In this document: piece after piece, positions 45,299 through 62,039 of the stretch
Layout of the letters: the number at the start of each line of letters is the position of its first letter
Position numbering within the stretch: position 1 is the stretch's first letter
Assembly (NCBI RefSeq): GCF_017220215.1
Contig: NZ_CP071131.1
Coordinates: 62,001-126,000, forward strand
DNA: 64,000 nucleotides
Direction: 5' to 3'
Source: Caballeronia sp. M1242
Lineage (GTDB): Bacteria; Pseudomonadota; Gammaproteobacteria; Burkholderiales; Burkholderiaceae
The notes under the pieces: model-generated
What the model saw: only the letters and a program-made list of their open reading frames with translations
Database searches by the model: none
What the model was told of the DNA's origin: nothing
Translations under genes and position numbers: made by a program

Positions 45299-45492
45299 TC
45301 ACGAGAAGTCACGCTCGATAGCCTGAGCAAGGCGATCGCGTGAGTCCGATCGCCCACGATCCCGATCCTGGTTCTGTTCGGACGGCATACCGCAAGGAAC
45401 TCAACACGGCCTTCGAAGGTGCGTGTCCGGCGTTGCAGCGACTCAAGGATGAAAAAGCGGTCGGGGCGATATCGGCGGAAATGCATCGCTAA
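45299..45492 (+). pseudogene. Fragment of an aldo/keto reductase
   Basis: Two short pieces in different frames match the central part of D-threo-aldose 1-dehydrogenase-like aldo/keto reductases: SREVTLDSLSKAIA, then after a TGA and a shift IAHDPDPGSVRTAYRKELNT, FEGACPALQRLKDEKAVGAI and SAEMHR. The N- and C-terminal thirds and part of the middle are gone. It follows the aldolase gene by only 7 bp, so an ancestral aldolase-reductase pair may have existed. Confidence 0.65.
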
Positions 45493-45619
45493 GCATTTGC
45501 CCGCACGGTATCACGTTGCCGGAGGCGGTTCAGAAGTTGCCGGAGGATGACCCATGAAACGCATACCGGCGTGGCGCCGCCTGCGCGTGCGGCCATCTTC
45601 CACGACCTTCAGTCGACTT

Positions 45620-45976: not shown

Positions 45977-45985
45977 ACTCGCTAG

Positions 45986-46001
45986 TTCGATATTCATCGA
46001 A
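45986..46001. promoter_or_regulatory. ArsR-type operator in the arsR-xenA spacer
   Basis: TTCGAT-ATTC-ATCGAA, a perfect 6-bp inverted repeat with a 4-bp centre, 9 bp upstream of the ArsR start and 36 bp upstream of the XenA-like start. ArsR-family repressors bind short AT-rich palindromes of this form. Confidence 0.6.
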
Positions 46002-46037
46002 ATAACGTACAAGCCTCATGAACGGGAGTTTAGCCTG

Positions 46038-47135
46038 ATGTCCGCATTATTTCAGCCCTACAAGCTCAAAGATGTTTCGTTACGCAACCGCATTGCCATT
46101 CCACCGATGTGTCAGTACACGGCCGAGGACGGTTTGATCAACGACTGGCACCGTGTGCACCTGGCCGGTCTGGCACGCGGCGGTGCAGGGTTGGTGATCG
46201 TCGAGGCAACGGCCGTGTCGCCCGAGGGTCGGATTACACCAGGCTGCGCGGGCATCTGGACCGACGAGCAGGCGCAGGCTTTCGCGCCCGTGGTCGCATC
46301 GATCAAGGCGGCGGGCGCGGTGCCGGGCATTCAGATCGGTCACGCGGGCCGCAAAGCCAGCGCGAACAGACCGTGGGAAGGCGACGATCATATCGCCGAC
46401 AGCGATCCGCGAGGCTGGGCAACGCTCGCGCCCTCGGCGATCCCCTTCGGCGGCGGTCTGTCGAAAGTACCCAAAGCGATGACGCTCGACGACATCGCGC
46501 GCGTTCGCGAAGATTTCGTCGCCGCCGCGAAGCGAGCGCGCGACGCGGGCTTCGAATGGCTTGAGTTGCACTTCGCGCACGGCTACCTTGGCCAAAGCTT
46601 CTTTTCCACGCACTCCAATCAACGCGACGACGCGTACGGCGGCAGCCTCGAGAACCGCAGCCGCTTTCTGCTTGAAACGCTGGCCGCCGTACGCAAGGTG
46701 TGGCCGGAGCACCTGCCATTGACGGCGCGCTTCGGCGTGATCGAGTACGACGGCCGCGACGAAGAAACGCTCGTCGAGTCGATCGAACTGGCGAAGAATT
46801 TCAAGCGCGAGGGACTGGACATGCTAAGCGTCAGCGTGGGCTTTTCCACGCCGACCGCAGCCATTCCATGGGCTCCGGCGTTTCTCGCGCCGATCGCGGA
46901 GCGCGTGCGCCGCGAGGCCGGCATTCCGGTTTCGTCGGCATGGGGCATCGATACGCCCGAACTGGCGGACCGTTCGGTGAAGAACGGGCAGCTGGATCTA
47001 GTGATGGTTGGTCGCGCGCACTTGGCCGATCCGCACTGGCCGTACTATGCGGCGAAGAAGCTGGGTATCGAGCGTCCGTCGTGGACGCTGCCGGCACCGT
47101 ACGCGCATTGGCTCGAACGCTATGCGGTTGCGTGA
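46038..47135 (+). CDS. xenA: XenA-type NADPH:flavin ene-reductase (Old Yellow Enzyme family)
   Basis: A 365-residue FMN TIM-barrel enzyme that reduces activated C=C bonds and nitro groups. The thermophilic-like OYE marks are present: IPPMCQYTAEDG with Cys25 and Tyr27, HLAGLARGGAGL, QIGHAGRKASANRPWEG, the LHFAHGYLGQSFFS active-site pair of His, and NQRDDAYGGSLENRSRF. Overall it is very close to Pseudomonas XenA as I recall it. Divergence from an ArsR-family gene suggests induction by electrophiles. Confidence 0.9.
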   Translation: MSALFQPYKLKDVSLRNRIAIPPMCQYTAEDGLINDWHRVHLAGLARGGAGLVIVEATAVSPEGRITPGCAGIWTDEQAQAFAPVVASIKAAGAVPGIQIGHAGRKASANRPWEGDDHIADSDPRGWATLAPSAIPFGGGLSKVPKAMTLDDIARVREDFVAAAKRARDAGFEWLELHFAHGYLGQSFFSTHSNQRDDAYGGSLENRSRFLLETLAAVRKVWPEHLPLTARFGVIEYDGRDEETLVESIELAKNFKREGLDMLSVSVGFSTPTAAIPWAPAFLAPIAERVRREAGIPVSSAWGIDTPELADRSVKNGQLDLVMVGRAHLADPHWPYYAAKKLGIERPSWTLPAPYAHWLERYAVA

Positions 47136-48336: not shown

Positions 48337-48348
48337 GTGGTGCACCAC
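48337..48348. promoter_or_regulatory. Palindrome GTGGTGCACCAC upstream of the importer
   Basis: A perfect 12-bp palindrome centred about 102 bp upstream of the predicted start of the -24/-12 promoter. Related sites (sharing YACCAC) lie before the divergent amidohydrolase and MarR genes at 61275 and 61377, and ATTT follows 2 bp after ACCAC here and at both of those sites. Confidence 0.55.
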
Positions 48349-48417: not shown

Positions 48418-48435
48418 TGGCATACCACTTGCATA
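48418..48435 (+). promoter_or_regulatory. Predicted sigma-54 (-24/-12) promoter of the importer
   Basis: TTGGCATACCACTTGCAT: GG and GC are exactly 10 bases apart, with TGGCA at -24 and TTGCA at -12, close to the sigma-54 consensus. Predicted transcription start is about 48445, leaving a ~100-base leader to the binding-protein gene. An almost identical core precedes the amidohydrolase operon. Confidence 0.6.
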
Positions 48436-48545: not shown

Positions 48546-49415
48546 ATGTTAGTTCGTCTTACCCGTCGCGATGCTGGTCAATCCAAACACCGCTTTGCCG
48601 TCACGCTCCTTCGCTCGTGCGCGCTCATGGTCGTCGCTACGGTCGGCCTGAGTCAGGCGGCTCATGCAGCCGGCGCCAAAGACATCAAGGCGCGCGGTTA
48701 TCTGAGCGTTGCGACCGAAGACGACTACAACCCATTCGAGTTCGTCGAGAACGGCAAGAACACGGGGTACGACAACGACCTGCTCGCGCTGATGCGCAAG
48801 AAGCTCGGCGTCGATGTAAAGCAACAGGTGATGCCGTGGTCCGGCATTCTGCCCGGCGTCACGACGGGCAAGTACGACATGGCATTGAGCGCGGTGCTCG
48901 TCACCGAAGAGCGCAAGAAGAACTTCGACTTCGCGTCGCCGACCTGTGAGGCCGTCACCATGTACGCGACGAAGAAGGGATCTTCCATCAAGACCACGGA
49001 CGATCTCGTCGGCAAGGTGGTGGGTGCGGAAACGGGTAGCGCGATGCTCGCAGACCTCAAGCAGTTCAACGAGGAGCTGAAGAAGAAGCACGGCGGCAAC
49101 GGCCTCAAGCAGATCGTCGAATATCAGTCGTATCCGGAGGCCTATCAGGATCTCGGGCTCGGCCGCGTCGATGCCGTCGCCAATACGCAGATCAGCCTGA
49201 ATTCGCTGGTGAAGACACGCCCGGACGTCTTCGTCGTCGGCCAGGCAATCGGCAAGCCTACGTACATCGCGTGGGCCGTGAAGAAGGGCAACACTGACGT
49301 CGTGAAGATGGTCGATGCCGCGCTGCTCGAACTGCGCAAAAGCGGCGAGATGTACCAGCTCCAGCAAAAGTGGCTCGGTGCGAGCTACAAGGACATGCCG
49401 CAGTCGGTCAACTGA
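48546..49415 (+). CDS. ABC transporter substrate-binding protein (family 3)
   Basis: A 289-residue periplasmic protein with a signal peptide ending AHAAG; AAAGGGG precedes the ATG. Family 3 marks are GYLSVATEDDYNPFEFVENG, GYDNDLLALMRKKLG, the VMPWSGILPGVTTGKYDMAL loop and LGLGRVDAVANTQ. It is the first gene of a four-gene importer that converges on the molybdenum hydroxylase cluster and shares its putative promoter elements, so its ligand is probably the compound degraded there. Family 3 proteins bind amino acids and other small charged nitrogen compounds. Confidence 0.88.
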   Translation: MLVRLTRRDAGQSKHRFAVTLLRSCALMVVATVGLSQAAHAAGAKDIKARGYLSVATEDDYNPFEFVENGKNTGYDNDLLALMRKKLGVDVKQQVMPWSGILPGVTTGKYDMALSAVLVTEERKKNFDFASPTCEAVTMYATKKGSSIKTTDDLVGKVVGAETGSAMLADLKQFNEELKKKHGGNGLKQIVEYQSYPEAYQDLGLGRVDAVANTQISLNSLVKTRPDVFVVGQAIGKPTYIAWAVKKGNTDVVKMVDAALLELRKSGEMYQLQQKWLGASYKDMPQSVN

Positions 49416-49442
49416 CCTTTACGCCTCTACCAACTCCCATCG

Positions 49443-50087
49443 ATGAACGCCTTCGATTACTGGAGCATCGCGCAGGGCGCGCTGGCGACCGTGCTTCTTT
49501 CGGTCGCCAGCATCGTGCTCGGCGTGCCGCTGGGGCTCGGACTTGCGTTGATTCGCTGGGCGCGCGTGCCGTATCTCAACCGCATCGCGCTCGCGTACGT
49601 GAGCCTCATCCGCTCGTGTCCTGCCGTCACGCTGACGTTGCTGATTTTCTTCGCGCTGCCGCAGTTCGGCATCTCCCTGGACCCGACGCCCGCCGCGATC
49701 CTCGCACTCACCATCAGCACGGCAGCGTTCAATTGCGAAATCTGGCGCGCTGCGCTGATGAACTTTCCGCGAGATCAGTACGACGCCGCCCTCGCCTTCG
49801 CCATGCCGCGCAGCCTGCGGTTCCGGCGCATCGTGATGCCGCAGATCTGGCGCGCAAGCCTTCCGGGTCTCGTCAACGAAATGACCTTGCAGATCAAGTC
49901 GACGCCCGCGGTCGCGGTCATCGGCATCGTCGAGATCACGCGCGCCGCCCTGCGTGTGGGCGCGCGCACCTATGATCCGCTGCCGCCGTTCGTGTTCGCG
50001 CTGGTGCTGTACGGGCTGATCGTGTTCGTGCTGATCCGGGCGCAGCGTCTGATCGAGAGACGTCAGCCCGTGGAGGCGCGCGCATGA
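49443..50087 (+). CDS. ABC transporter permease (HisM/HisQ type, first)
   Basis: A 214-residue inner-membrane permease with YVSLIRSCPAVTLTLLIFF, EIWRAALMNFPRDQYDAALAF and the GLVNEMTLQIKSTPAVAVIGI segment typical of polar amino acid permeases. Its stop overlaps the next start by 4 bp. Confidence 0.87.
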   Translation: MNAFDYWSIAQGALATVLLSVASIVLGVPLGLGLALIRWARVPYLNRIALAYVSLIRSCPAVTLTLLIFFALPQFGISLDPTPAAILALTISTAAFNCEIWRAALMNFPRDQYDAALAFAMPRSLRFRRIVMPQIWRASLPGLVNEMTLQIKSTPAVAVIGIVEITRAALRVGARTYDPLPPFVFALVLYGLIVFVLIRAQRLIERRQPVEARA

Positions 50088-50743
50088 CCGAACATTTTCT
50101 GATCGTCTGGCAGCAGCGCGCGGACGTGCTTGCGGGCCTGCTCGACACGCTCGGACTGCTGGCCGTCGCCGCGATCGCTTCGCTCCTGCTGGGCGCACTG
50201 CTCGCGCCCGCGCTCATGTCGAAGCGCCCGGCCATCGCGCGGCTCGCCATGCTCTATGTCGATGCCATGCGTTGCGCGCCTTTTCTGCTCTTCGTTTATC
50301 TGATCTATTTCGGTCTGCCGACCGCTGGCATTCGTCTGTCGAACTGGTGGGCGGGCGCCATCGCGCTGATTCTCTATAACACCGCCTACATGGCCGAACT
50401 GTTGCGCGGCGCGTGGGCCGGGCTGCCCGTGCCGATGATCGAAGCCGCGCGCGCCTACGGCTTTCACGGCTTCGGTCTCGTTCGCCGCATCATTCTCCCG
50501 CAGGTCTTCACCGTCGCTTTGCCGATGATCGGAAATCAGCTCGTGCAGATCGTGAAAGACAGCGCGTTCCTCACGGTGATCGCGGTCGGCGAACTGACGC
50601 ATCAGATGAACGGCATTCAGGCTACCTATTTCATCCCGTTTGCCGCGTTCATCACGGCCGTGCTGCTGTACTGGGCCATTTGCCTCGTGATCGAAGGCGG
50701 CAGCGGATTATTGTCGAGATTCGCCGAGGAACGCAGAGCATGA
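50084..50743 (+). CDS. ABC transporter permease (HisM/HisQ type, second)
   Basis: A 219-residue permease with YVDAMRCAPFLLFVYLIYFG, YMAELLRGAWAGLPVPMIEAA and RRIILPQVFTVALPMIGNQ. It overlaps both neighbours by 4 bp, indicating coupled translation and a heterodimeric channel. Confidence 0.87.
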   Translation: MTEHFLIVWQQRADVLAGLLDTLGLLAVAAIASLLLGALLAPALMSKRPAIARLAMLYVDAMRCAPFLLFVYLIYFGLPTAGIRLSNWWAGAIALILYNTAYMAELLRGAWAGLPVPMIEAARAYGFHGFGLVRRIILPQVFTVALPMIGNQLVQIVKDSAFLTVIAVGELTHQMNGIQATYFIPFAAFITAVLLYWAICLVIEGGSGLLSRFAEERRA

Positions 50744-51615
50744 ACATTTCCAACGACGTCCCGCTCACGGCCATGCGCGCACCCGACGCGGCAAAAAGCT
50801 CGAGCGGCCTCGCATACGGCGCGGCGAGCGAGACGGCGCAGACGGTCCTGCAACTCAACGGCATTTCGAAGTCATTCGGCGACAACCACGTGCTGCGCGA
50901 TGTCTCGCTCACCGTGCACAAGGGCGAGACCGTATGCCTGCTGGGACCATCGGGTTGCGGGAAGTCCACTCTCCTACGCTGCGTGAACTGGCTGGAGATT
51001 CCGGATGCCGGCACCATCCACGTATCGGGTCGGCGCATGGGCGTGCGCGAGGGCTCGTCGATCAAGATGAACGATGCCGAACTCGCGCGTTCGCGGGCAC
51101 GCATCGGCATGGTGTTTCAGCACTTCGCACTATGGCCGCATCTGACGGTGCTGCAGAACGTCATGGAAGCGCCGCTCCACGTGCTCGGACGTCCGCGCGA
51201 CGAAGTGCGGGCGGACGCCGAGCGCCTACTGGAACGTGTCGGCCTCGCTGCCAAGCTGGATGCCTTCCCCTCGCGGCTGTCGGGCGGTCAGAAGCAGCGT
51301 GTGGGCATCGCGCGGGCACTGGCAATGAAACCGGACATCCTGCTTTTCGACGAACCCACCAGCGCGCTCGACCCGATGCTCGTCGGCGAAGTGCTGAACG
51401 TGATGCGCTCGCTCGCGCAGGAAGGCGCGACCATGGTGATCGTCACGCACGAGATGGAATTCGCGCGGCAAGTGGCAAGCCGCGTCGTTTTCATGGACGC
51501 CGGACAGGTGATCGAGAGCGCACCGCCCGCGCAATTCTTCGGCACACCGCAGACCTCGCGCGCGCGGCAGTTCCTGGCGCGCTTTCGCTCGCCGCATCAG
51601 GCGGCCGACGACTGA
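50740..51615 (+). CDS. ABC transporter ATP-binding protein (polar amino acid type)
   Basis: A 291-residue ATPase. After a 40-residue lead it shows Walker A GPSGCGKSTLLRC, Q-loop VFQHFALWPH, signature LSGGQKQRVGIARAL and Walker B ILLFDEPTSALDPML. It is the last gene of the importer operon and ends 72 bp before the convergent dioxygenase gene, with a strong hairpin between. Confidence 0.88.
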   Translation: MNISNDVPLTAMRAPDAAKSSSGLAYGAASETAQTVLQLNGISKSFGDNHVLRDVSLTVHKGETVCLLGPSGCGKSTLLRCVNWLEIPDAGTIHVSGRRMGVREGSSIKMNDAELARSRARIGMVFQHFALWPHLTVLQNVMEAPLHVLGRPRDEVRADAERLLERVGLAAKLDAFPSRLSGGQKQRVGIARALAMKPDILLFDEPTSALDPMLVGEVLNVMRSLAQEGATMVIVTHEMEFARQVASRVVFMDAGQVIESAPPAQFFGTPQTSRARQFLARFRSPHQAADD

Positions 51616-51640
51616 AGCGCATCCCCGAACGCGCCTGGGC

Positions 51641-51682
51641 TTCACGCTCGCGGCGGCGTGCACACGCCGCCGCGAGCGTGAA
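51641..51682. terminator. Bidirectional terminator hairpin, 20-bp perfect stem
   Basis: Positions 51641-51660 and 51663-51682 are exact reverse complements with a 2-base CA centre, a 42-base near-continuous palindrome between the stops of the importer ATPase (+) and dioxygenase (-) genes. GC-rich, no T tract. Placement fits a shared terminator that insulates two convergent operons of one pathway. Confidence 0.75.
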
Positions 51683-51687
51683 CCGAC

Positions 51688-52518
51688 TCACTGCGGCGCG
51701 ACCATGTCCGCGGCCTGCTTCACTTCGCCGTCCTTGTACTTGCCCCACGTTTGCGCCAGTTCGCTCATCGAGCGCGGATCGCAATCGTATTCGGGCAAGG
51801 TGTCGGCATCCCAGTGACCGAAGCGATCGACACCGCGTACGAGCGTCGCGCGGCGGCGGCCAGTCGTGGATCGCACGTGCGCCGGCACGTAGAAGAACGC
51901 GAAGCCGATGCGCCGGTCATCCGAGCGATTCGGCAGCGAACTATGCGCGGTGCGTTCGTGATGCATCGAGAATTCGCCCGGCTGGAGCGGCATCTCGACG
52001 GCCAGGTCTTCGTCGATACCGACGAGCGTCTGGCCTTTTGCGAGCATGTTGTCTTTCGCGTAGGTCTCGACGTGCTTCAGGTCGGGTCCGCTGTGCGAGC
52101 CGGGCAGCACACGCAGCACGCCGTTGACCGAATTGGCCGGTGTGAGCGCGACCCACACCGTGACTTCTTCGTGCGGCGTCAGCCCGAAGTACGTTGAATC
52201 CTGATGCCACGACACATAGCGCGGATCGCCACCGTTCTTTGCGAAGATGGACGCGCCGAACAGCATGATGTCCGGTCCGATGAGGTCCTCGACCGCATCG
52301 AGAATGGCCGGATGACGCCCCAACTCGACAATTGCCGGCAAAGCCAGATGGCCTTTGATCTTCAGCGTCTTGTTGACGTCCTCCCCGGTGGACGCCTCAT
52401 ACCGTTCGATGATGCGGCGATACTCCGCCGCCTCTTGCGCGTCGATCGCGCGCATCGGATAGACATAGCCGTGCTGCTTGAAGTGGGCGACCTGCGCTTC
52501 GGTCAGATGCTTCGTCAT
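51688..52518 (-). CDS. Phytanoyl-CoA dioxygenase family protein
   Basis: A 276-residue Fe(II)/2-oxoglutarate dioxygenase. The metal triad is visible as His105-x-Asp107 in WHQDSTYFG and the distal His192 in TAHSSLPNRS, with an Arg in DDRRIG for 2-oxoglutarate. PhyH-family enzymes hydroxylate varied small molecules. It lies 74 bp after the amidase gene as the last gene of the catabolic run, so it may hydroxylate a pathway intermediate or release a side group, for example by N-demethylation. That role is inference. Confidence 0.82.
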   Translation of the reverse strand: MTKHLTEAQVAHFKQHGYVYPMRAIDAQEAAEYRRIIERYEASTGEDVNKTLKIKGHLALPAIVELGRHPAILDAVEDLIGPDIMLFGASIFAKNGGDPRYVSWHQDSTYFGLTPHEEVTVWVALTPANSVNGVLRVLPGSHSGPDLKHVETYAKDNMLAKGQTLVGIDEDLAVEMPLQPGEFSMHHERTAHSSLPNRSDDRRIGFAFFYVPAHVRSTTGRRRATLVRGVDRFGHWDADTLPEYDCDPRSMSELAQTWGKYKDGEVKQAADMVAPQ

Positions 52519-52592
52519 GGACGTTCCTTTGAGTGGGCTTTGTTCGGAAAGACGCCTGCTCGTCCGGCAGCGGGTCGCGCCCGCGCCGACGC

Positions 52593-53810
52593 TTACTGCA
52601 TGACTTCGTGCATCGCGCGCGCGACGCGCAGCACGCCTTCGTCCGCGCCGCGCGCGCCGATCACGGAAAGGCCGACAGGCGCGCCGTCGATGGGTGCCCA
52701 CGGCATGCTCACTTGCGGCAGGCCCGCGAGACCCGCGACGCACAGCATCTGCTGCGCACGCGCGCGCGCGTGATCGACCGCTTGCGCAGATGCATCGGCG
52801 CGCGGCGCGCCGCCCGGCACGGTCGGAATGAGCCAGTAGATGCCTTGCGGCAGGGCTTCGGCCATTGCGCGGATAGCTTCGGCGCGAACGCGCTGCGCCT
52901 GCGCGGTCTGCTCGCGCGTGATGGTCAGGCTCATCGCGAAGCGCGCGCCGACGTCCGCGCCGAAGCTCGCGGCATGATCGCGCGCCCACGCGCCGTATCG
53001 CTGGGCGATTTCCGCCGCCTGCAACACGCGGAAAGCCTGCGCCCAGTCCGCGAGCGACGCCTCCGGCGCGACGACACTCACGCGCTCGCCGAGCGACTTC
53101 ATCGTTGCCTCGATAGCCGCCTCGAAGCGGGCCGCGACGGGTACATCGGCGCAGGCGAGCAGATTGCGCGGAACGTGCACGGAGAAGGCATCGTCATCCG
53201 CCGCGACGACGCTTTGCGCCAGCACCTCGAACATGAGCGCGAGCGTGCGGTGGTCTCGCGCGAACCAGCCGACCGTGTCGAAGCTGTGGGCGAGCGTCAG
53301 ACATCCGTCCGTGGCGATACGGCCATGCGTGGGCCGCATGCCCCATACGCCGCAATAACTCGCCGGCAGCCGCACGGAGCCGCCGCAATCGGTACCGAGC
53401 GCAATGTCCGCATGACCCGCCGCGACCGCCACGACAGAACCCGATGACGATCCGCCCGGAATCCGCGCCGGATCGGCGGGATTGACTGGCGTGCCATAGT
53501 GCGCGTTGACGCCAGCGAGGCTGTAGGTCAGTTCATCCGTGACGGTCTTGCCGACCCATTGCGCGCCTTGTTCGAGAAGCACGCGAACGGCAAGCGCGGT
53601 GCGTGCGGCGACCGGCTGCTGTTCGCGCCACACGGGATTGCCGCTGCCCGTTCGCAAGCCGGCAATATCGAACACGTCCTTCACCGCGAGGCGCAGTGTC
53701 GCCAGTCTGTCGCCGGTGCGCGAGGGCTGCGCGGCCGACGGCAGCGAATCGAAGCCATCGGCGACGAACGCTCCGTGCAGGCCCGCTTGCAGCAAATCGT
53801 TGCTCGTCAT
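52593..53810 (-). CDS. Amidase-signature hydrolase, AtzE-like
   Basis: A 405-residue amidase-signature enzyme. The Ser-cisSer-Lys triad appears as Lys44 in AVKDVFD, the GGSSSGS loop (about 119-125) and the nucleophile Ser145 in [11 protein letters not shown]. The start overlaps the stop of the AtzH-like gene by 4 bp. In atrazine/cyanurate and oxalurate pathways an amidase of this kind (AtzE, HpxY) is coupled with an AtzH/HpxZ-like protein, so the pair points to hydrolysis of an N-carboxy-, N-carbamoyl- or oxalyl-amide. No AtzG/HpxX-like small subunit gene was found in the window. Confidence 0.82.
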
Positions 53811-54196
53811 GACGGGTCCATCCAGCTGACATGAGCGGCGACGACGCGCCACCGGCCGTCGATGCGCACCCACGTCTGCGACTGACGCCCGATGCGCGGT
53901 TCGCCCGCGCGCGAGAACGTGATGTTCGCCACGGCAAAGTCCGCACCGAAGGTCGTCACCGACCGGTCGACGATCGTGCGCATCAGCCCCTTGGCCGGGC
54001 GCTGCGCCCGAAATTCGCGGATGGCGTCGTAGCCTTGCAGGTTTTCGGTCGCGCCGTAGCGCAGCGTCTGCGGACTCATCCAGAAAAGCGTGTCGAGAAC
54101 GGCGACGTCGTTGGTCGTGAGCGCGCGCTCGTATTCATCGAAGGCGGCTTCGACCGCCGCGAGGGTGGCCGGATGATTGATCGGTTGCGCGCTCAT
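53807..54196 (-). CDS. AtzH-like protein (DUF3225, SnoaL fold)
   Basis: A 129-residue cone-fold protein. [47 protein letters not shown], and the end strand [18 protein letters not shown] are typical of the AtzH/HpxZ group. AtzH acts on an unstable ureide intermediate downstream of cyanuric acid; HpxZ accompanies oxalurate hydrolysis. It overlaps the amidase and DUF1116 genes by 4 bp each, so the three products are made in step. Confidence 0.82.
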
Positions 54197-55389
54197 GGGG
54201 TCTCGGCGGAAAGGGTTTGCAAAGCACGCGCGAAGAGCTCGGGCGGCGCTGCATAGAGGCCGCGTCCGAGCAGTCCCGCTCGCCCGTCGCCGCCGATCAT
54301 CGCGATGGCGGCGAGCGGCGCGATCCCTTCGCGCTCGACGCGCGCCGCGTCGAGCACGCCGGGCAGCCGCCCGAATGCGGGGTGCGATTCCGTATGAACG
54401 CGCGCCTGCCGATCGCGCCAGCCGGCGGGCAGAAATGGCTCGAAGGCCTGCGCCGGCTCCGGGGCGAACGCGAGCGCCTGAGCGCCGAAACCGGCCGCGT
54501 CGATGACGCCGCTGTCGCCGGTCAGCGGCGCGGCGTGCGCGGCCTGTCGCGGATCGATGCGCGGTCCTTTCGGCGCGTGTGCAGCCGCGGTGATCCAGCG
54601 TGAGGGCGCGCCCGCAAGCCGGATGCCGACGCGCTCGCCGTTGCCCGCGAGCGCAACGACGAGCGTCGACGAAGCGTCGCCCGGACTCGCCGCCGAAAGC
54701 ATGAGCGCGCACGCGGCCATCCATAGCGTCAGGAAGAAGAGCGGCGTCTGCGCCAGCATGGCGTCGATTTCGGCGGATGCATCGGTAAGGCGGCTAGCAA
54801 GCGCAGCACGCAGCGCGGCGGTTGCGGCCGTGGTGCGCGCATGCAGGTCGTCGCCGTCATGCAGACCTGTCTGCGCCAGGGCGAGCAAATCGAGCGGTCC
54901 GCGAGCGAGGGCGTCATCGAGCGCGGGCGCGAGCACCTCGTCCCGCCACTTCATGCGATCGAGAATGCGCAAGTCGCGGGTTCCGAAGCGGATCTGCGGA
55001 CCGGCGCCGCTGCCTAGCAGGGACCACGCGCGTGCGGCGGGATCGATCTCATCGCTCACTTCCACGAGCGTCGTATGCGGCGAGATCACCGCCGCGAGCG
55101 GCGTCACCACGCCGTACGACTGCGCGCTTTCGAGCCGCACTTCGCCCTGCGCGATCAGCCGCTCGGCGTGCGCTTCGTCCATCGCCCAGCCTTCATAGAG
55201 ACAGCAAAGGATGGCCGACGAGCGCACGGGCGGCGACGGCTCGCGCGGATTCCCGAACGGCGGCCCCGCGTGAAGCAGGGTGAAGTCCGGCAGACACACG
55301 GCGTCGCGCGCCGCCACGACCGCACGCCATTGCGGACGCACCGCGTGAATTCGGCTCAACGCGCGTGCGTTGGCATCGTCGGCGCGCAT
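54193..55389 (-). CDS. DUF1116 protein, AllG-like (oxamate carbamoyltransferase subunit family)
   Basis: A 398-residue protein. The DUF1116 pattern is visible: [46 protein letters not shown], then [20 protein letters not shown] and [19 protein letters not shown]. In enterobacteria AllG (YlbE) works with AllF (FdrA) and AllH in splitting oxalurate to oxamate and carbamoyl phosphate. No AllF- or AllH-like gene lies in this window, so this protein may act alone or with other partners in the AtzH/amidase context. The match is by motif memory and should be treated as probable. Confidence 0.72.
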
Positions 55390-55391
55390 GG

Positions 55392-56090
55392 TCAGCGGGC
55401 CGCGAAGCTGAACAGTCCGCGCAGGCGCGACCACAGCATCTTCCAGAACAGATTGCCGACGTCGAGCGGCGCGTTCGCCGGTCTCACCGCGTTGGCCGAT
55501 GCCGGACGCTCAGCGGGACGCTCAGCCGGACGCGCTTCCAGGGGCGCTTGCGCAGCGGCCGCAATGTGCTCCGCCGGCGCGACGGGTGCCTCAGCTTCCT
55601 GCACCACGGCCTGCACCGGCGCGCTGTCGGATGCCGCGCCCGCCTCGTCGAGCTTCGCCTTCAGATTGGCCGCGAACGCTTCGGTCATGCGCGTCGCCAG
55701 CTCCTTCACGATGCCGCCACGCGAAAACTGCGCGAGGCTCCCGCCGATCGTGTAGTCCACTTTCACGTCGACACGCGTCTCGTTTGCCGCCGTGGCCTCG
55801 AGTGCGAACGACGCTACGCCCTTCACGCGCGACGAACTCTTGCGGTCCACGCCCGTTCCGGTAATGCTGCCGCGATACTGCGCATCGTCGAGCTTCATCT
55901 CGCCGTCGCCCGCGAAAGACGCGACGATCGGGCCGAGCTTGACGGTCATCGCGAGCTTGAGCATGCCGTTGTCGACCGGCGCCGTGAGCGACGCGCCCGG
56001 CAGGCACGCGACAATCTCCGGCGTGTCGTGAAAGCGCGCCCAGACGGCATCCCGCGGATACGGGACGGTGAAGCTTTGTTCGATTTCCAT
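55392..56090 (-). CDS. CoxG family SRPBCC protein
   Basis: A 232-residue protein. An N-terminal SRPBCC/CoxG domain (about 1-150) shows EQSFTVPYPRDAVWARFHDT, ACLPGASLTAP, GSITGTGVDRKSSSRVKG and a VDVKVDYTIGGSLAQFSRG segment. An Ala/Pro/Glu-rich linker and a C-terminal hydrophobic segment (NLFWKMLWSRLRGLFSF) follow, which in CoxG anchors the molybdenum hydroxylase to the membrane. It lies 24 bp after the iron-sulfur subunit gene, as expected for hydroxylase maturation or membrane recruitment. Confidence 0.82.
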   Translation of the reverse strand: MEIEQSFTVPYPRDAVWARFHDTPEIVACLPGASLTAPVDNGMLKLAMTVKLGPIVASFAGDGEMKLDDAQYRGSITGTGVDRKSSSRVKGVASFALEATAANETRVDVKVDYTIGGSLAQFSRGGIVKELATRMTEAFAANLKAKLDEAGAASDSAPVQAVVQEAEAPVAPAEHIAAAAQAPLEARPAERPAERPASANAVRPANAPLDVGNLFWKMLWSRLRGLFSFAAR

Positions 56091-56114
56091 TGCGTACGGG
56101 TTCCGTATCGGTTC

Positions 56115-56636
56115 TCAGGCGGTCACGGCCGCGACCGCAAGCGGCACCGCTGCGTGGGCGCGACGCGCATCGAGCACGCGGCGGATCGCGCGGACGATGC
56201 CCACGTAACCAGTGCACCGGCAGAGGTTGCCGGAGAGTTCGAGGCGCACGCGGGCGTCGTCGGCGTCGGGCAGGCGGGTCACGATGTCGCGCGCCGTCAT
56301 CAGCATGCCCGGCGTGCAGTAGCCGCATTGCAGCGCGTGCTCGGCGCTGAACGCAGCGCGCAACTCGTTCATGGTGGCGTCGTCGTCGAAGCCTTCGATG
56401 GTGCGTACCGTGCTTCCCGCGCACGTGACCGCTGGCGTGATGCACGAACGGGTCGGCATGCCGTCCACCTCGAGCGTGCAGGCGCCGCATACGCCCTGCT
56501 CGCAGCCGATGTTGGTGCCGCACAGCATGCGTTGCTCGCGCAGGAAATCGGCGAGGCTCGTGCGCGGCTCGACGCGGTCCGCGACTGGCGCACGGTTGAC
56601 GATGAGTTCGATCGTCTTGATCATGGGCTCGCTCAT
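56115..56636 (-). CDS. Molybdenum hydroxylase, [2Fe-2S] subunit (CoxS-like)
   Basis: A 173-residue iron-sulfur protein. The plant-ferredoxin cluster uses CEQGVCGAC with Cys45, 50, 53 and Cys65. The second cluster uses CGYCTPGM and CRCTGY in the C-terminal helical domain. It passes electrons from the Mo site to FAD. Both ends overlap or abut the other subunit genes. Confidence 0.9.
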   Translation of the reverse strand: MSEPMIKTIELIVNRAPVADRVEPRTSLADFLREQRMLCGTNIGCEQGVCGACTLEVDGMPTRSCITPAVTCAGSTVRTIEGFDDDATMNELRAAFSAEHALQCGYCTPGMLMTARDIVTRLPDADDARVRLELSGNLCRCTGYVGIVRAIRRVLDARRAHAAVPLAVAAVTA

Positions 56637-57466
56637 GCTTTTCCATCCTGATTGCGAATGCCCGCAGAAGCGCGTACCAGCGCCACGCGATGCACTTCGT
56701 GTTCGTAGCTTCCGGCTTCGATGCCCGCTGCTTCGAGATGCGCATCGAAGCACGAGGTCCGTGGATCGGCGTCGGCAAGCAGGTCGCGCGCATCGTCGAT
56801 TGGATAGGGCGGTGCGTCGATCGCGCCGATCACGGCACGGCACACGCCGCGCGCCGCATCGTCGATGAACACCGCAATCGCTTCGGCGAACTCTCCCGGC
56901 TTGCGGTTGAACTTGTAATAGCTCCAGCGCGCCGTCGGCGAAAGACGCGCGAAGCGCACGCCGGTGAGGATTTCATCGGCTTCGAGCGCGGTCGTGAATG
57001 CGCCGGCCATCCAGTCCGCGCAGTCGATCACCCGCGCGCCGCCTCGTCCCGCGACGAGATACTGCGCGTCGAGCGCGCACATCGTATTGATCCAGTCGGC
57101 GGCGGGATCGGCGTGGGCGAGACTGCCGCCCAGCGTGCCGCGGTTGCGCACCGCGCGATACGCGATGCCGCCCGCCACGTATTCCATCAGGCCGCGCGTG
57201 CCGGTCTCGACCTTGCCGTCCTCGATCTCCGCGTGCGTGATGCACGCGCCGAGCGTGACCGTCTCGCCATCGGTGCGGCATGCGCGCAGCGCCTCGATTC
57301 CGCGAAGATCGACGAGCATTTCGGGCTGCGCGAGCCGCAGGTTCATCATCGGTCCGAGCGACTGGCTGCCGGACACGAACTTGCCCATGCCGTCGGTCGG
57401 TCCGATGAGTGCAATCGCCTCGCCGCAGGCGAGCGGCTTTGCGTAATCGTAGGTCGCGGCTTTCAT
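56633..57466 (-). CDS. Molybdenum hydroxylase, FAD subunit (CoxM-like)
   Basis: A 277-residue FAD-binding subunit of the xanthine dehydrogenase family. It has the dinucleotide loop GKFVSGSQSLGPMMNLRLAQP, LGACITHAEIE, and VRNRGTLGGSLAHADPAADW typical of CoxM/XdhB proteins. It overlaps the Mo subunit and the iron-sulfur subunit genes by 4 bp each. It hands electrons to NAD, oxygen or a quinone. Confidence 0.88.
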   Translation of the reverse strand: MKAATYDYAKPLACGEAIALIGPTDGMGKFVSGSQSLGPMMNLRLAQPEMLVDLRGIEALRACRTDGETVTLGACITHAEIEDGKVETGTRGLMEYVAGGIAYRAVRNRGTLGGSLAHADPAADWINTMCALDAQYLVAGRGGARVIDCADWMAGAFTTALEADEILTGVRFARLSPTARWSYYKFNRKPGEFAEAIAVFIDDAARGVCRAVIGAIDAPPYPIDDARDLLADADPRTSCFDAHLEAAGIEAGSYEHEVHRVALVRASAGIRNQDGKA

Positions 57467-59868
57467 GCGGGCATTCCTTTCATCGCGTGGGCCTGGCGCT
57501 GGCGCTCCCCGGCGATCGCTTCGACGACGAGGCGCGGCGTGATCGGCAACTGGTCGATGCGCACGCCGAGTCCGCGCAGCGCATCGTTGACGGCGTTGGC
57601 GATCGCGGCGGGCGGACCGATCGCCCCGCTTTCGCCGATGCCCTTCTGCCCGAACTCCGTGTACGGGGCGGGCGTTTCCATGTGTTCGATGCGAATGGCG
57701 GGCACCTCGGTCGCGCCGGGCAGGAGGTAGTCGGCGAGCGTCGAGGCAAGCGGCTGGCCGTCGTCGCTGTACGGCATCGCCTCGTAGAGCGCCGTACCGA
57801 TGCCCTGCGCCGCGCCGCCGTAGACCTGTCCGTCGACGACCATCGGATTGATGAGCACGCCGCCGTCTTCCACGATCACGTAGTCGAGAATCTCCGTCTG
57901 GCCGAGCGCCGGATCGACCGCGACCACCACCGCGTGACACGCGTAGCTGAACGTGCCCGAGTCGCGCTTCGCCTGATAGGACGTCGAGACTTCGAGTCCG
58001 CGCGGATCGACATCGGACGGCAAAAGTTGCGGCGCGAGATACCATGTCCGCGCGATGTCCCGCAGGCTGCGCGAGCCTTGCGTGCCGACCACCGCGCCGT
58101 TCTCCCAGCGCACCTCGCTCAACGGTTCGCCAAGCAGATGCGCGCCGATCTTCAGGAGCCGCTCCTTCAATTCCTTCGATGCGCGGCCCACCGCGCCGCC
58201 CGCCATCACGATCGAGCGCGAGCCCCACGTGCCGGTGGAATACGGCGTCACGCCGGTGTCGCCCAGCACGATGCGCACGCGGTCGGTGTCGATGCCGAGC
58301 ACTTCGTGCGCGATCTGCGCGAGCGTCGTCTCCATGCTCTGGCCGTGCGAGTGCACGCCGGCGCGCACTTCGAGCACGCCGTCGGGCGTGAGGCGGATCA
58401 CGGCCGGCTCGTAACCCGGCACCATCGGAATGCCCCAGCCGTGATACACCGACGTGCCGTGCGCGCCCTGCTCGCAGAACACCGACATGCCGAAACCGAT
58501 GCGCCTGCCGTCAGGCTCGCCCCGGCGCTGTCTTGCGCGCACGGCCGGCAGGTCGATGGCGGCCATCGCACGGCGCACCGCCTCGGGATAGTCGCCGCTG
58601 TCGAAGTGCTTCTTCGTGATGTTGTCGTAGGGCATTTCGTGCGGCTCCACGAGATTGCGCAGCCGCACCTCGAAAGGTTCGATGCCCGCTTCGAGCGCGA
58701 TGCCATCCATGATGGATTCGATTGCATAGCAGACACCCGTGCGCGCCACGCCACGATACGGCAGGATCGGCGGCTTGTTGGTCGCGACCGACCACGTCCG
58801 GCACCGGAAACGCTCCATCTTGTACGGCCCGGGCAGAATGCTGCCGACCTGCGCCGCTTCGAGGCACGCCGAGAACGGATAGGACGAGTACGCGCCTGAA
58901 TCCACATGTGCCTCGCACTCGACCGCGAGCAGGCGCCCGTCGCGATCCGCGTAGCCGGTGATGTCGTAGTCGTGCTCGCGGCAGTTCGCATTTGCCGTGA
59001 GCTGCTCGCGGCGATCCTCGATCCAGCGCACCGGCTTTTCGAGTTGCATCGCTAGCCATCCGCAGCACACTTCCTCAGGAAGCAGGATGCCCTTGTAGCC
59101 GAAGCCCCCGCCCACGTCCGGCGCGATCACGCGCACTTGTCCTTCGTCGAGGCCGAGACATTCCGCGAGCCCGGTACGCGTGATATGCGGCATCTGCGCG
59201 GACGTGTGCACGATCAGTTGCGACAGCCGCCGGTCCCAGTGCGCCACGCAACCGCGGCCTTCCATCGGCGCCATGCTCTGGCGCGCCGTGCGCAGCTTGC
59301 GATGCACGCGGATGGGCGCGTCGCGGCGAATGGCATCGAGATCGACGTCGGGGTTCGCATCGACGAACGTTTCTAGGAAGACGTTGTCACCCCAATGTTC
59401 GTGCACGAGTGGGGAATCGTCGCGGCGCGCGTCCAGCATGTCGACGACGGCGGGCAGTTCCTCGAAATCGACGAACACCTGCGCGGCGATGTCCTCGGCC
59501 TGCGCGCGCGTCGCGGCCACGCACATCGCGATCGTCTCGCCGACCTGCCGCACTTTGGCGCTCGCGAGAACAGGCTGTTCAGAGCATTTGAAGCCCGGAA
59601 GGCCCGAATTCGCGACGATAGGCTTCACGCCTTCCATGTCGGCGAGCGTGTAGATCGCGTGTTCGAATTCCTTCGGCTTCTCGATGCCGACGATATGACC
59701 GTGCGCAATCGGGCTGCGCACGAAGGCCACATCCACCATGCCGACCATGCGTATATTCGGCACGTATTCGCCGCGCCCGTGCATGAAACGCTCGTCTTCC
59801 TTGCGCGTGAGCGATGCACCGATGCCTTGCGGGCGGTTGCTGCCTTGTTTCTGCGGACGTCTGATCAT
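57463..59868 (-). CDS. Molybdenum hydroxylase, molybdopterin-binding subunit
   Basis: An 801-residue catalytic subunit of the xanthine dehydrogenase/CO dehydrogenase family. Mo-cofactor motifs DVGGGFGYKG (about 251-260) and the catalytic Glu segment KGIGESGAIGPP near the C-terminus are present. The active-site loop reads PYRGVAR (about 370-376), like the form II/AYRGAGR group, and lacks the AYXCSFR motif of true CO dehydrogenase, so it is a hydroxylase of an organic, probably heteroaromatic or aldehyde, substrate. It starts 11 bp before the amidohydrolase stop, in the same operon. Confidence 0.88.
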   Translation of the reverse strand: MIRRPQKQGSNRPQGIGASLTRKEDERFMHGRGEYVPNIRMVGMVDVAFVRSPIAHGHIVGIEKPKEFEHAIYTLADMEGVKPIVANSGLPGFKCSEQPVLASAKVRQVGETIAMCVAATRAQAEDIAAQVFVDFEELPAVVDMLDARRDDSPLVHEHWGDNVFLETFVDANPDVDLDAIRRDAPIRVHRKLRTARQSMAPMEGRGCVAHWDRRLSQLIVHTSAQMPHITRTGLAECLGLDEGQVRVIAPDVGGGFGYKGILLPEEVCCGWLAMQLEKPVRWIEDRREQLTANANCREHDYDITGYADRDGRLLAVECEAHVDSGAYSSYPFSACLEAAQVGSILPGPYKMERFRCRTWSVATNKPPILPYRGVARTGVCYAIESIMDGIALEAGIEPFEVRLRNLVEPHEMPYDNITKKHFDSGDYPEAVRRAMAAIDLPAVRARQRRGEPDGRRIGFGMSVFCEQGAHGTSVYHGWGIPMVPGYEPAVIRLTPDGVLEVRAGVHSHGQSMETTLAQIAHEVLGIDTDRVRIVLGDTGVTPYSTGTWGSRSIVMAGGAVGRASKELKERLLKIGAHLLGEPLSEVRWENGAVVGTQGSRSLRDIARTWYLAPQLLPSDVDPRGLEVSTSYQAKRDSGTFSYACHAVVVAVDPALGQTEILDYVIVEDGGVLINPMVVDGQVYGGAAQGIGTALYEAMPYSDDGQPLASTLADYLLPGATEVPAIRIEHMETPAPYTEFGQKGIGESGAIGPPAAIANAVNDALRGLGVRIDQLPITPRLVVEAIAGERQRQAHAMKGMPA

Positions 59869-59879
59869 GTGCTTGAACC

Positions 59880-61142
59880 TCACGCGGCGCGCGCGAGCGG
59901 CAGCGTCGGCGAGACCGCGTTGTGGCGCACGCCGTCCCGCAGGCAAAAGAGCGGCGACAACATGCGGTCGGTGATGACCTGTGTGCCTTCGTTGTCCTCC
60001 AGCACCCAGCGCCCGCGACGGTCATCCAGCACGCTGATGTCCGCGCCCCGCCCCACTTCGAGCGTGCCGATCTCGTGCTCCATGCCGACCATCTTCGCGG
60101 CGTTGCAGGTCGCCATCGCAACGACGTGACCGAGCGGCAGGCCGAGCGCCAGCATGCTTGTCATCGCGCTGACGAGGCTGAACTGGGTGCGGCCGAGAAA
60201 CGAATGCTCTTCGTCCGGGTGACTGTCGGGCGTGCCGGCGGGGGCGGGCACGTGCGTGTTGTAGCCGTGCATGTCTGCGCCGAGCGTGTCGGGGACGACA
60301 CCCGCGTCGAGCACGATACGCGCCGTCTTGAAGCTGAAGTGCGAGCCGTGGCCCACGTCGATCTTCAGGCCGCGCGACACCGCTTCGTGCACGAGCGGAT
60401 GCAGTTGCCCGTTCTCTTCGACGAAGCCGCCGGGATGACGGCTGAACGGATGCGCGAGGATGTCGCCGGGCTTGAGCGTCTCAACCACCTGATTGAAGAT
60501 ACAGTCGGGCTGCACCGGCAGTCCGCCACTCTGCGGCTTCGGCCACAACTGACCGAAATGGATGTACAGGGGCAGATTTGCGCCGCGCCCGATCTGCGCG
60601 GCGATCTTCATGACGTCGAGACCCCAGCGCGCAAACCCGCCGATTTCTGCATGCGCCTTGATGCCCTTCACGAGATCCGGATTGGCCTTGATCGACTTGA
60701 TGGTCGCATCGGCATCGAGACAGTCGGGGCGATACAGGTCCGGATAATAGTGACCTTCGAGCCCCCCGACGAGATAGGCGGAAATGAACGCCAGGACGCG
60801 CGTGGCCGAACGCTCCGCCACGTAGTGCCGAAAGCCCGGAATGGTGATGCAACTCGGTCCGCCCTGATCGACGAGCGTCGTGACGCCCGACTGCACGCCG
60901 CACTGATCCGCGTTCAGGCCGAAGCGTCCCGTGACGTATTGGTAGACGTGACCGTGGGTATCGATAAGACCGGGCAGCACCAGCTTGCCACTGCAATCGA
61001 CGACTTCTGCATGCCGCGCCTGTGTCGCGGCGTCGACGCCCATTGCGGCGATGACGCCGTTGTCCACCAGAATGTCGAGTGTGGCGTCGATCTTCTGGGC
61101 CGGGTCAATGACGCGCCCCCCTTTGAGCAGTACTTGTGACAT
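59880..61142 (-). CDS. Amidohydrolase/deacetylase family metallohydrolase
   Basis: A 420-residue TIM-barrel metal enzyme. It shows the N-terminal metal motif DTHGHV (61-66) after GKLVLPGLI, then GIKAHAEIGG, YIHFGQLWP, LAHPFSRHPGG and DVGHGSHFSF metal ligands, and the DISVLD barrel end. Relatives such as Atu3266/EF0837 hydrolyse N-acyl or ester bonds; dihydroorotase- and hydantoinase-like members open cyclic amides. As the first gene of the run it would open a ring or remove an acyl group. Its promoter region carries a -24/-12 element and palindromes shared with the importer. Confidence 0.82.
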   Translation of the reverse strand: MSQVLLKGGRVIDPAQKIDATLDILVDNGVIAAMGVDAATQARHAEVVDCSGKLVLPGLIDTHGHVYQYVTGRFGLNADQCGVQSGVTTLVDQGGPSCITIPGFRHYVAERSATRVLAFISAYLVGGLEGHYYPDLYRPDCLDADATIKSIKANPDLVKGIKAHAEIGGFARWGLDVMKIAAQIGRGANLPLYIHFGQLWPKPQSGGLPVQPDCIFNQVVETLKPGDILAHPFSRHPGGFVEENGQLHPLVHEAVSRGLKIDVGHGSHFSFKTARIVLDAGVVPDTLGADMHGYNTHVPAPAGTPDSHPDEEHSFLGRTQFSLVSAMTSMLALGLPLGHVVAMATCNAAKMVGMEHEIGTLEVGRGADISVLDDRRGRWVLEDNEGTQVITDRMLSPLFCLRDGVRHNAVSPTLPLARAA

Positions 61143-61172: not shown

Positions 61173-61184
61173 GTGGTGTACCGC
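61173..61184. promoter_or_regulatory. Imperfect palindrome GTGGTGTACCGC at the amidohydrolase promoter
   Basis: Differs from the importer site GTGGTGCACCAC at the centre and one arm base. It overlaps the -12 element and predicted start, a position suited to repression. Confidence 0.4.
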
Positions 61185-61196
61185 AAGTAGTATGCC
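61183..61196 (-). promoter_or_regulatory. Predicted -24/-12 promoter of the amidohydrolase operon
   Basis: Read on the - strand: GGCATACTACTTGC, with GG and GC 10 bases apart. It matches the importer element GGCATACCACTTGC at 13 of 14 positions, though its outer bases fit the sigma-54 consensus less well. Predicted start is about 61171, giving a leader of some 30 bases. Confidence 0.5.
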
Positions 61197-61274
61197 GGTT
61201 TCGCTTCGCCATGCCTCGCAGGCCTCTTTCCTCGTCGTTTCAATGGCTTACGACCTTCGATTACGGGCGATGCG

Positions 61275-61394
61275 TGCCGTACCACGGATTTTGTCGAAAG
61301 CCATCGCACCAAGTCGGACAGTCACGGACGCGCGCCCGCACCACGCCCATGCGCGATGCCTTCTTATGGTGATTCGTAGGTGTACCACGGATTT
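61275..61394. promoter_or_regulatory. Direct repeat GTACCACGGATTT, candidate activator/MarR sites
   Basis: The 13-mer occurs exactly at 61280-61292 and 61382-61394, each as the right half of an imperfect palindrome (61275-61286 and 61377-61388) related to GTGGTGCACCAC. Relative to the predicted amidohydrolase start they are centred near -109 and -211. The second lies about 90 bp before the MarR gene. Confidence 0.5.
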
Positions 61395-61472: not shown

Positions 61473-62039
61473 ATGCGAAACATGGCCACCGATCGAATCG
61501 ACATCAAGAGCGTCCGAGCCGAGCTTGCCGAACGACAGACTCGCTCGCCGCTCTTTGCACGGCCGGGCTTTCTCATTCGTCGCCTGCATCAGATCCATAC
61601 CTTCCTGTTCGTGCAGGAAACGAGCGAATTCAATATCACGCCAGTGCAGTACAGCTTGCTCACGGCGCTCGAGTCACTCGGCGAGATGGATCAGAACTCG
61701 CTCGCTATCGAAGTCGGACTGGAGCGATCCAGCGTCGCGGAAGTGATTCCTCGCCTCAACGCGCGCGGGCTCGTCAGCCGCACGCAGGCGGAGCATGACA
61801 AGCGGCTGCGGCTTGTCAGGCTCACGCCCGCTGGCAAACGCCTGGTCAGGAAGATGGCCGCCGCGGTGCAGCGCGCGCACGAGCGCACCATCGAGCATCT
61901 GTCGCCCGTCGAGCGTGATTTCTTCATGCTCCAGATGATCCGGCTGGTGGAAGCCAACAACGCGGATAATCTCGTACCCTTCCGGCTGCCCGACAGCCAG
62001 TTGCTCGCGCAGGACGAAAGCGAGGCCGACGCCACGTGA
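61473..62039 (+). CDS. MarR-family regulator
   Basis: A 188-residue winged-helix protein. LIRRLHQIHTFLFVQETSEFNITPVQYSLLTAL is the dimer/helix 1-2 region, ERSSVAEVIPRLNARGLVSR the recognition helix, and HDKRLRLVRLTPAGKRL the wing. The length is slightly above typical for MarR, with an acidic C-terminal tail. It is divergent from the amidohydrolase operon over a 330-bp spacer and probably represses it until the substrate or a product binds. An ATG three codons later is an alternative start. Confidence 0.85.
   Translation: MRNMATDRIDIKSVRAELAERQTRSPLFARPGFLIRRLHQIHTFLFVQETSEFNITPVQYSLLTALESLGEMDQNSLAIEVGLERSSVAEVIPRLNARGLVSRTQAEHDKRLRLVRLTPAGKRLVRKMAAAVQRAHERTIEHLSPVERDFFMLQMIRLVEANNADNLVPFRLPDSQLLAQDESEADAT

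Follow-up and report, generated by a model that had tools for sequence, protein, structure and literature searches.

In a 64,000-nucleotide stretch of Caballeronia sp. M1242 DNA (contig NZ_CP071131.1, positions 62,001 to 126,000; the window), we analyzed 13 genes at window positions 48546–61142, in which a four-gene ATP-binding cassette (ABC) importer operon on the forward strand faces nine reverse-strand genes that include an amidohydrolase (AHase), a CoxLMS-type molybdenum hydroxylase, a solo AllG-like (DUF1116) protein, an amidase, and an AtzH/HpxZ-type protein. The cluster is a real conserved unit. From its families and neighbors, we give an even chance to the reading that it would serve to scavenge nitrogen by importing and degrading a single N-heterocycle, probably an acidic one, with a route ending in an oxamate-like amide.

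Organization of the cluster

Open reading frames and family searches confirmed all 13 genes. The first-pass annotation had described an importer converging on nine same-strand genes, most of which abut or overlap by 4 bp, and frames, families, and junctions agreed with this layout; it had not listed a divergent MarR gene and two sigma-54-type promoters. The catabolic operon is transcribed in the order AHase, CoxL, CoxM, CoxS, CoxG, AllG-like, AtzH/HpxZ, amidase, PhyH. Overlaps of 4 bp occur at six junctions (two of three in the importer operon and four of eight in the catabolic operon), and the remaining junctions have gaps of 27, 2, 11, 24, and 74 bp. A 72-bp interval, in which no intrinsic terminator was found, separates the two convergent operons.

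Conservation in relatives and distant genomes

A search with the AllG-like protein recovered 14 loci (12 from Burkholderiaceae and two from metagenome-assembled genomes), a set that this bait biases toward AllG; a Paraburkholderia plasmid locus (L016) was added separately. Gene content and order were kept in 13 other Burkholderiaceae loci at 66–98% protein identity, to the extent that the contigs cover them (those of L004 and L006 are cut off early), and the cluster is therefore more than a chance association. The neighborhood comparison proposed in the first-pass annotation thus came out in favor of linkage. Two Caballeronia loci (L002 and L003) are among the closest named relatives, with 80–98% protein identity. 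Losses were seen in three of the 13 loci: L012 and L016 have no linked amidase and AtzH, and L007 has no AtzH. The L012 genome carries no PRK08310 amidase over the cut-off, the L016 plasmid carries one elsewhere, and in L007 a deletion has left only the last AtzH codons ahead of the amidase (L007:11189–11224).

The AHase was used as an independent bait. A close AHase was found in 11 of 398 Proteobacteria genomes and in 8 of 150 from the window's family, a patchy distribution; in the family survey, surroundings were read for four of the seven non-self matches, one of which (L097) is probably the L010 genome. Among the 10 non-self AHase genomes of the 398, CoxL lies beside the AHase in eight, a branched-chain-type importer is present in eight, a related MarR gene adjoins the AHase in nine, and an AllG-like gene is found at the AHase locus in three. 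Two loci (L095 and L096) carry AHase, CoxL, CoxM, CoxS/CoxG, AllG, and a branched-chain-type importer, with amidase, AtzH, and PhyH absent from the stretch; L094 has AtzH but neither a linked amidase nor PhyH. The combination of AHase, Cox genes, amidase, HpxZ, and AllG, accompanied by a branched-chain-type importer, was found in Azospirillum Sp7 (L018, L029) and in genome G016 (L051, L077). These data indicate that MarR, AHase, CoxLMS/CoxG, and an importer form a core that is found again in distant Proteobacteria, where the importer is of another type. The earlier idea of a single nine-gene pathway thus stands as far as a linked, conserved unit is concerned and does not extend to all nine genes, since there are clusters, intact in other respects, that lack PhyH, amidase, or AtzH.

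Three variant loci were also recorded. At L043:4938–10155, AHase and AllG-like genes occur with a DIOX_N-type 2-oxoglutarate (2OG) oxygenase, an SDR gene, and an NMT1-type binding protein, with no CoxLMS in the stretch; this oxygenase is perhaps an alternative oxidation step. A UbiD-family decarboxylase gene sits between the AllG-like gene and the AHase at L015:11205–12590, and a nickel pincer cofactor-dependent isomerase, group 22 (NF052515), lies near the AHase-amidase-HpxZ-AllG genes at L052:7049–8341.

AHase and the CoxLMS molybdenum hydroxylase

The AHase (59880–61142, reverse strand) matched the PRK09237 family over the cut-off (NF006689), and we take it to be of the COG3964 type. Its likely metal ligands (H63, H65, K162, H195, H231, and D290) are invariant in 14 of 14 loci. 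Downstream on the same strand lie the CoxL-like molybdopterin subunit (57463–59868; MoCoBD_1/2), with PYRGVARTG and KGIGE motifs, the CoxM-like FAD subunit (56633–57466; FAD_binding_5, PF00941), the CoxS-like [2Fe-2S] subunit (56115–56636; Fer2_2/Fer2), and a CoxG-like SRPBCC protein (55392–56090; PF06240). The molybdenum cofactor (MoCo), FAD, and [2Fe-2S] domains and the Glu of KGxGE place the enzyme in the xanthine oxidase family.

In 10 of 10 loci, 317 CoxL positions are invariant regardless of importer type, and the motif reads PYRGVARTG or PFRGVARTG; the active-site residues of both AHase and CoxL are likewise invariant across importer types. The divergences of the two proteins correlate (rho 0.74, 66 pairs), as shared ancestry alone could bring about. 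CoxS and CoxG form one fused polypeptide at L024:14417–15604 and L027:17360–18559, which speaks for direct cooperation of CoxG with the iron-sulfur subunit. By sequence, the window CoxL is assigned to a subfamily of its own, marked by the invariant P-Y/F-RGVARTG motif and a CoxG partner that is either separate or fused to CoxS. Its closest solved chain is that of quinoline 2-oxidoreductase (1t3q_B, 471 bits), with CO dehydrogenase second (435 bits).

HpxZ, amidase, and HpxW-like neighbors

The AtzH/HpxZ-type protein (53807–54196, reverse strand) scored 185 bits against the NF033625 cut-off of 135 and keeps Y22 and R46, a correspondence that assumes the same numbering in AtzH and the window protein. 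According to passages of PMC6219798, the probable substrate of AtzH in cyanuric acid breakdown is an N-carboxy compound, and Tyr22 and Arg46 are needed. A homologue was present in 27 of the 34 loci searched, with R46 in all 27 and Y22 in 25, the other two not being covered at that position; none was found in the stretches of L007, L012, L016, L024, L043, L095, and L096.

HpxZ occurs in 42 of the 398 genomes, in all 11 with the AHase versus 31 of the 387 others (Fisher p ∼5e-12, which overstates the association because the genomes are related, four AHase genomes belonging to one family and two to another). In 8 of the 11 AHase genomes HpxZ lies no closer than 0.8 Mb to the AHase or is on a different contig. 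We read 12 HpxZ loci, nine from AHase genomes and three from others: an amidase adjoins HpxZ in 10 (not in L090 or L092), and a 60–68-residue protein that is HpxX-like by eye is found in four. In genome G193 (L089), the amidase found with HpxZ is 48% identical to its Azospirillum counterpart; the same locus has transporter genes that resemble the TRAP type by eye, as well as genes for a gamma-glutamyltransferase-like protein (GGT) and TauE that are 64% and 58% identical, respectively, to those of the Azospirillum cluster. The window amidase (52593–53810, reverse strand) is a PRK08310 family member (NF006169, over the cut-off) with a Ser/Ser/Lys signature, distantly AtzE-like, and its signature positions are kept in seven of seven aligned sequences.

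HpxW is described in passages of PMC5270733 as an oxamate amidohydrolase. An HpxW-like GGT gene adjoins the cluster in 6 of the 13 Burkholderiaceae loci at two different sites, on the MarR side in L002, L003, and L007 (about 0–3.4 kb) and on the importer side in L008, L009, and L011 (about 17–21 kb); it also adjoins the Azospirillum cluster and accompanies amidase and HpxZ in G193. Each is accompanied by a major facilitator superfamily (MFS) gene and, where the contig reaches (it does not in L009), by a GntR gene; the L002 regulator has GntR and FCD domains. The two MFS proteins scanned, from L008 and L009, are oxalate/formate antiporters (410 and 411 bits against an NCBIfam cut-off of 335). 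The scanned GGTs fell below the gamma-glutamyltransferase cut-off, and the nearest solved chain of those from L007 and Azospirillum is 5hft, which bears the table name gamma-glutamyltranspeptidase and which we take to be Klebsiella HpxW.

The solo AllG-like protein

The AllG-like gene (54193–55389, reverse strand) is present in a single copy in the genome. Its product matched PF06545 with 208 bits, which makes it an AllG family member, well below the 299–331 bits of AllG-proper matches. AllG matches were found in 15 of the 398 genomes, ten scoring at least 299 bits and five at most 215 bits, the window genome among the latter. AllH was present in seven of the ten high-scoring genomes and in none of the five low-scoring ones (Fisher p 0.026, with small numbers), and in four of these five the AHase lies within 7 kb of the AllG-like gene. 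The core residues H40, E66, R134, D180, H183, N250, and D292 are common to AllG proper; at positions 89 and 90 the window protein has A and Q where AllG proper mostly has C and H. The low score, the lack of AllH, the proximity of the AHase, and A89/Q90 together set the protein apart as a separate branch tied to the AHase. In the window genome, AllH (PF11392) gave no match, with a positive E. coli control, and AllF/FdrA gave none over the cut-off, only two weak partial matches (46 and 36 bits versus 433). The predicted structure was weak (61.5), and its sole significant match was 3clq, a protein of unknown function.

A family of ∼200-residue proteins lies near other AllG-like genes, at L017:8719–9977 (two copies), L022:5862–6452, and L023:9311–9916. 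The first L017 copy and the L023 protein had no Pfam match, and neither L017 copy had an NCBIfam match; Rieske oxygenases are annotated nearby in L017 and L023. This family and its AllG-like genes possibly represent another undescribed DUF1116 pathway.

Promoters and regulation

A sigma-54-type −24/−12 promoter, CGGCATACTACTTGC, precedes the catabolic operon (61183–61197, reverse strand), and a second, TGGCATACCACTTGC, precedes the importer operon (48418–48432, forward strand). These pattern matches are the only two perfect GG-N10-GC-type matches in the window, one per operon, and both are kept in the 13-promoter alignments; the pattern was drawn from the window itself. At one mismatch it was not clearly enriched (six found, 2.9 expected, with 7 of 100 shuffles reaching six), and a stricter pattern matched the importer site alone (three found versus 3.2 expected at one mismatch). 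Across loci, a sigma-54-type site lies within 260 nucleotides upstream of the AHase in 22 of 32, where mononucleotide shuffles predict 0.03. Close relatives account for 14 of the 22, and the fair test is the other eight, i.e. 8 of 18. The site is missing from L014, L015, L024, L027, L048, L050, L051, L052, L095, and L096.

The palindrome GTGGTGCACCAC (48337–48348, forward strand), upstream of the importer, is invariant in 13 aligned importer promoters and is the sole perfect copy in the window. A related site with one mismatch, GCGGTACACCAC, lies beside the −12 element of the catabolic promoter (61173–61184, reverse strand), and weaker two-mismatch copies are found at 61274–61285 and 61377–61388. 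At two mismatches the palindrome was not enriched in the window (16 found versus 11.9 expected). Because the window enrichment controls are weak, the promoter and palindrome evidence draws its weight from position and conservation. The MarR-family gene (61473–62039, start assumed, forward strand; PF01047) lies just upstream of the AHase and divergent from it. The palindrome is a likely regulator site, with MarR or an enhancer protein as its candidate binder. This arrangement suggests control by substrate through MarR and by nitrogen shortage through the sigma-54-type promoters. According to passages of PMC5491218, a Burkholderia cenocepacia ntrC mutant makes poor use of allantoin and parabanic acid, which is suggestive and is not linked to this cluster.

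Importer ligand and PhyH

The importer comprises a substrate-binding protein (SBP) of the polar amino acid type (48546–49415; SBP_bac_3), two permeases (49443–50087 and 50084–50743; both HEQRo_perm_3TM in NCBIfam), and an ATPase (50740–51615; ABC_tran), all on the forward strand. Alignment of the binding protein to solved SBPs showed that R123 is kept and that N213/T214 take the place of the Asp of the AncQR template; all 11 sequences aligned share these residues. Arg-123 and the usual amine-binding Asp position presumably have ligand-binding roles, as in solved SBPs. Since the Arg is kept and the Asp replaced by Asn/Thr, the alignment suggests a ligand that is acidic and without the usual amino group.

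The PhyH-type 2OG/Fe(II) oxygenase (51688–52518, reverse strand; PF05721) has an HxD motif at H105 and D107; its predicted structure was unusable (mean predicted local distance difference test score 34). PhyH was found in all 13 Burkholderiaceae loci of the AllG-like-bait comparison, and no match was found in the L094–L096 stretches or at AHase loci outside Burkholderiaceae. These absences rule out PhyH as a core enzyme, and its distribution marks it as a lineage-specific accessory. In Ruegeria L017, whose stretch has no AHase, a distantly related PhyH gene (27%) was found ∼8 kb from the AllG-like gene.

Proposed pathway

The reactions, their order, and the substrate are deduced from protein families and gene context, on the basis of the genes, conservation, associations, and promoter motifs described above. 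After ABC import of the N-heterocycle, CoxLMS would oxygenate a ring carbon next to nitrogen, with CoxG as an assembly or electron-acceptor partner, and the metal-dependent AHase would hydrolytically open the resulting lactam or cyclic ureide. The amidase would then deaminate an oxalurate-like acyl urea, and AtzH would decarboxylate the N-carboxy amide, so that NH3 and CO2 are released and an oxamate-like amide is left. The solo AllG-like protein may act on the same ureide by a route other than the known AllFGH reaction. Where an HpxW-like hydrolase exists, oxamate would yield oxalate and NH3, and an OxlT-type antiporter would handle the oxalate. PhyH would add a lineage-specific tailoring step.

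The favored substrates are cyclic ureides of the hydantoin, parabanate, or imidazole-derived kind. Ureide chemistry is favored because of the conservation, the AHase-HpxZ association, the HpxW-like and antiporter neighbors, and the sigma-54-type promoters, and the same evidence upholds the earlier proposal of a linked importer and catabolic set for a nitrogen compound with HpxZ/AtzH-type ureide chemistry. More tentatively, and with the odds somewhat against it, a molybdenum hydroxylase and a COG3964-type AHase might yield oxalurate or another acyl urea directly, bypassing allantoin, with the solo AllG as a new ureide-cleaving enzyme, in alpha- and betaproteobacteria and often behind sigma-54-type promoters.

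Several observations weigh against ureide breakdown by these genes. Characterized members of the AHase family are esterase- or deacetylase-like. The window amidase falls below the AtzE/HpxY equivalog (214.5 bits versus a cut-off of 461), belonging to PRK08310 instead, and no AtzG/HpxX-like (DUF4089-type) partner was seen in the operon, where no gap could hold it (the largest is 74 bp). Linked amidase and AtzH are absent from L012 and L016, as is AtzH from L007, and AllG went entirely unmatched in 7 of the 10 non-self AHase genomes. The 11 of 11 association with HpxZ does not represent 11 independent events, because AHase genomes cluster where HpxZ is common. No HpxW-like gene was found within the window or in 7 of the 13 Burkholderiaceae stretches (few-kb flanks, two contigs short), and the window genome has no close HpxW, the best match being 40% identical and on another contig. 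The sigma-54-type site is missing at 10 of 32 loci, two of them from Burkholderiaceae. Finally, the AHase of Azospirillum Sp7 is on the same strand as a nicotinate-like (nic) gene set and divergent from the Cox operon.

That neighborhood bears on another route, in which a pyridine, pyrazine, or other N-heteroaromatic acid would be hydroxylated by CoxLMS, opened as a lactam by the AHase, and relieved of a plain amide by the amidase, with no ureide. We consider it unlikely. The closest solved CoxL relative being quinoline 2-oxidoreductase fits this route, as do the UbiD gene of L015 and the nic-like set itself, which has its own importer and lies downstream of the AHase (L042:13919–25811), with annotations for 2,5-dihydroxypyridine dioxygenase, FAD monooxygenase, Asp/Glu racemase, alpha/beta hydrolase, and isochorismatase. 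Nicotinate is retained as a rival because of these neighbors; however, the nic-like genes were seen in one Azospirillum record only, with gaps of 93–267 bp between the first genes, and the HpxZ association and the HpxW-like and oxalate-antiporter neighbors are left unexplained. An oxidative pyrimidine route appears distinctly improbable. Here CoxLMS would convert a uracil-type ring to barbiturate, the AHase would give ureidomalonate, and the amidase and AtzH would release ammonia and malonamate or malonate. The same enzyme types suit an acyl urea that adjoins a carboxylate, the 56 solved amidases matched include biuret hydrolase and malonamidase E2, and the DIOX_N-type oxygenase beside AHase and DUF1116 in L043 and the UbiD decarboxylase in L015 would fit, but the HpxW-like and antiporter neighbors suit a C2 product better than malonate and, to our knowledge, barbiturases belong to a different fold family.

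It is extremely unlikely that CoxLMS is a CO dehydrogenase or aldehyde oxidase beside unrelated amide genes. CO dehydrogenase models match CoxL and CoxG, but the best equivalog score of CoxL was 548 bits against a cut-off of 950, every one of the 10 loci has the Tyr or Phe form of the RGVARTG motif, and the CoxL-AHase linkage recurs in distant taxa. The form I motif is AYRCSFR, and CO dehydrogenase was rejected on the scores together with PYRGVARTG. A transcarbamylase reaction, in which the AllG-like protein would split an oxalurate-like ureide with phosphate to yield carbamoyl phosphate, is very unlikely. Family membership and the shared core residues speak for it, but the branch has no AllH in five of five genomes, and passages of PMC11326118 state that oxamic transcarbamylase (OXTCase) of E. 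coli requires AllF, AllG, and AllH. The carbamoyl phosphate suggested in the first-pass annotation is not supported, because the window genome lacks AllH and has no AllF over the cut-off. Caffeine, creatinine, and riboflavin were rejected as substrates, as their enzyme sets differ (for riboflavin, PMC12746152).

Comparison with known systems

Ureide breakdown by this cluster would resemble Klebsiella hpxWXYZ in pairing an HpxZ-type protein with an amidase and, in several relatives, in an adjoining HpxW-like hydrolase; unlike that system, the window has a PRK08310 amidase in place of AtzE/HpxY, no HpxX seen in the operon, and HpxW unlinked, and its set is coupled to a molybdenum hydroxylase, an AHase, and a solo AllG. 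With atzGEH of cyanuric acid breakdown it shares an AtzH member with Y22 and R46 and the idea of deamination followed by decarboxylation (passages of PMC6219798), whereas the amidase is of another subfamily and AtzG, AtzD, and AtzF are absent from the window operon, to which that search was confined. E. coli AllFGH shares the AllG family protein, although the window protein is on a divergent branch in a genome without AllH and without AllF over the cut-off. The three-subunit organization is that of quinoline 2-oxidoreductase and other CoxLMS hydroxylases, and the closest solved large subunit is from the former.

In passages of PMC12746152, lumichrome (riboflavin) catabolism in Nocardioides also combines hydrolytic opening of a cyclic ureide with a xanthine-oxidase-like enzyme; it differs in LumH, LumI, LumM, LumJ, a Rieske dioxygenase, and a larger substrate, and those passages do not name AllG or HpxZ. 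The allFGHK and triuret/biuret clusters of nitrifiers place AllG- and AtzH-family genes in proposed organic-nitrogen pathways, but AllG is there accompanied by AllF, AllH, and AllK, and the passages of PMC12625717 describe no molybdenum hydroxylase or AHase. The first-pass annotation had not recognized the exact gene combination, and likewise we found no description of it in the open-access literature searched, as judged by titles, abstracts, and passages.

Each enzyme family is known; what would be new is the combination, the pairing of a solo AllG branch with the AHase, and the links to HpxZ, to HpxW, and to an oxalate antiporter. If correct, the proposal would give a testable function to the solo AllG/DUF1116 branch, the AHase subfamily, and the CoxL subfamily, and would connect N-heterocycle oxidation to an oxalurate-oxamate-oxalate end route in a setting other than purine breakdown. 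The sigma-54-type promoters and MarR point to nitrogen shortage plus an inducer as the inducing condition.

Elsewhere in the window, positions 41339–47135 hold, by eye, a second polar-amino-acid-type importer followed by class II aldolase-like and old-yellow-enzyme-type genes.

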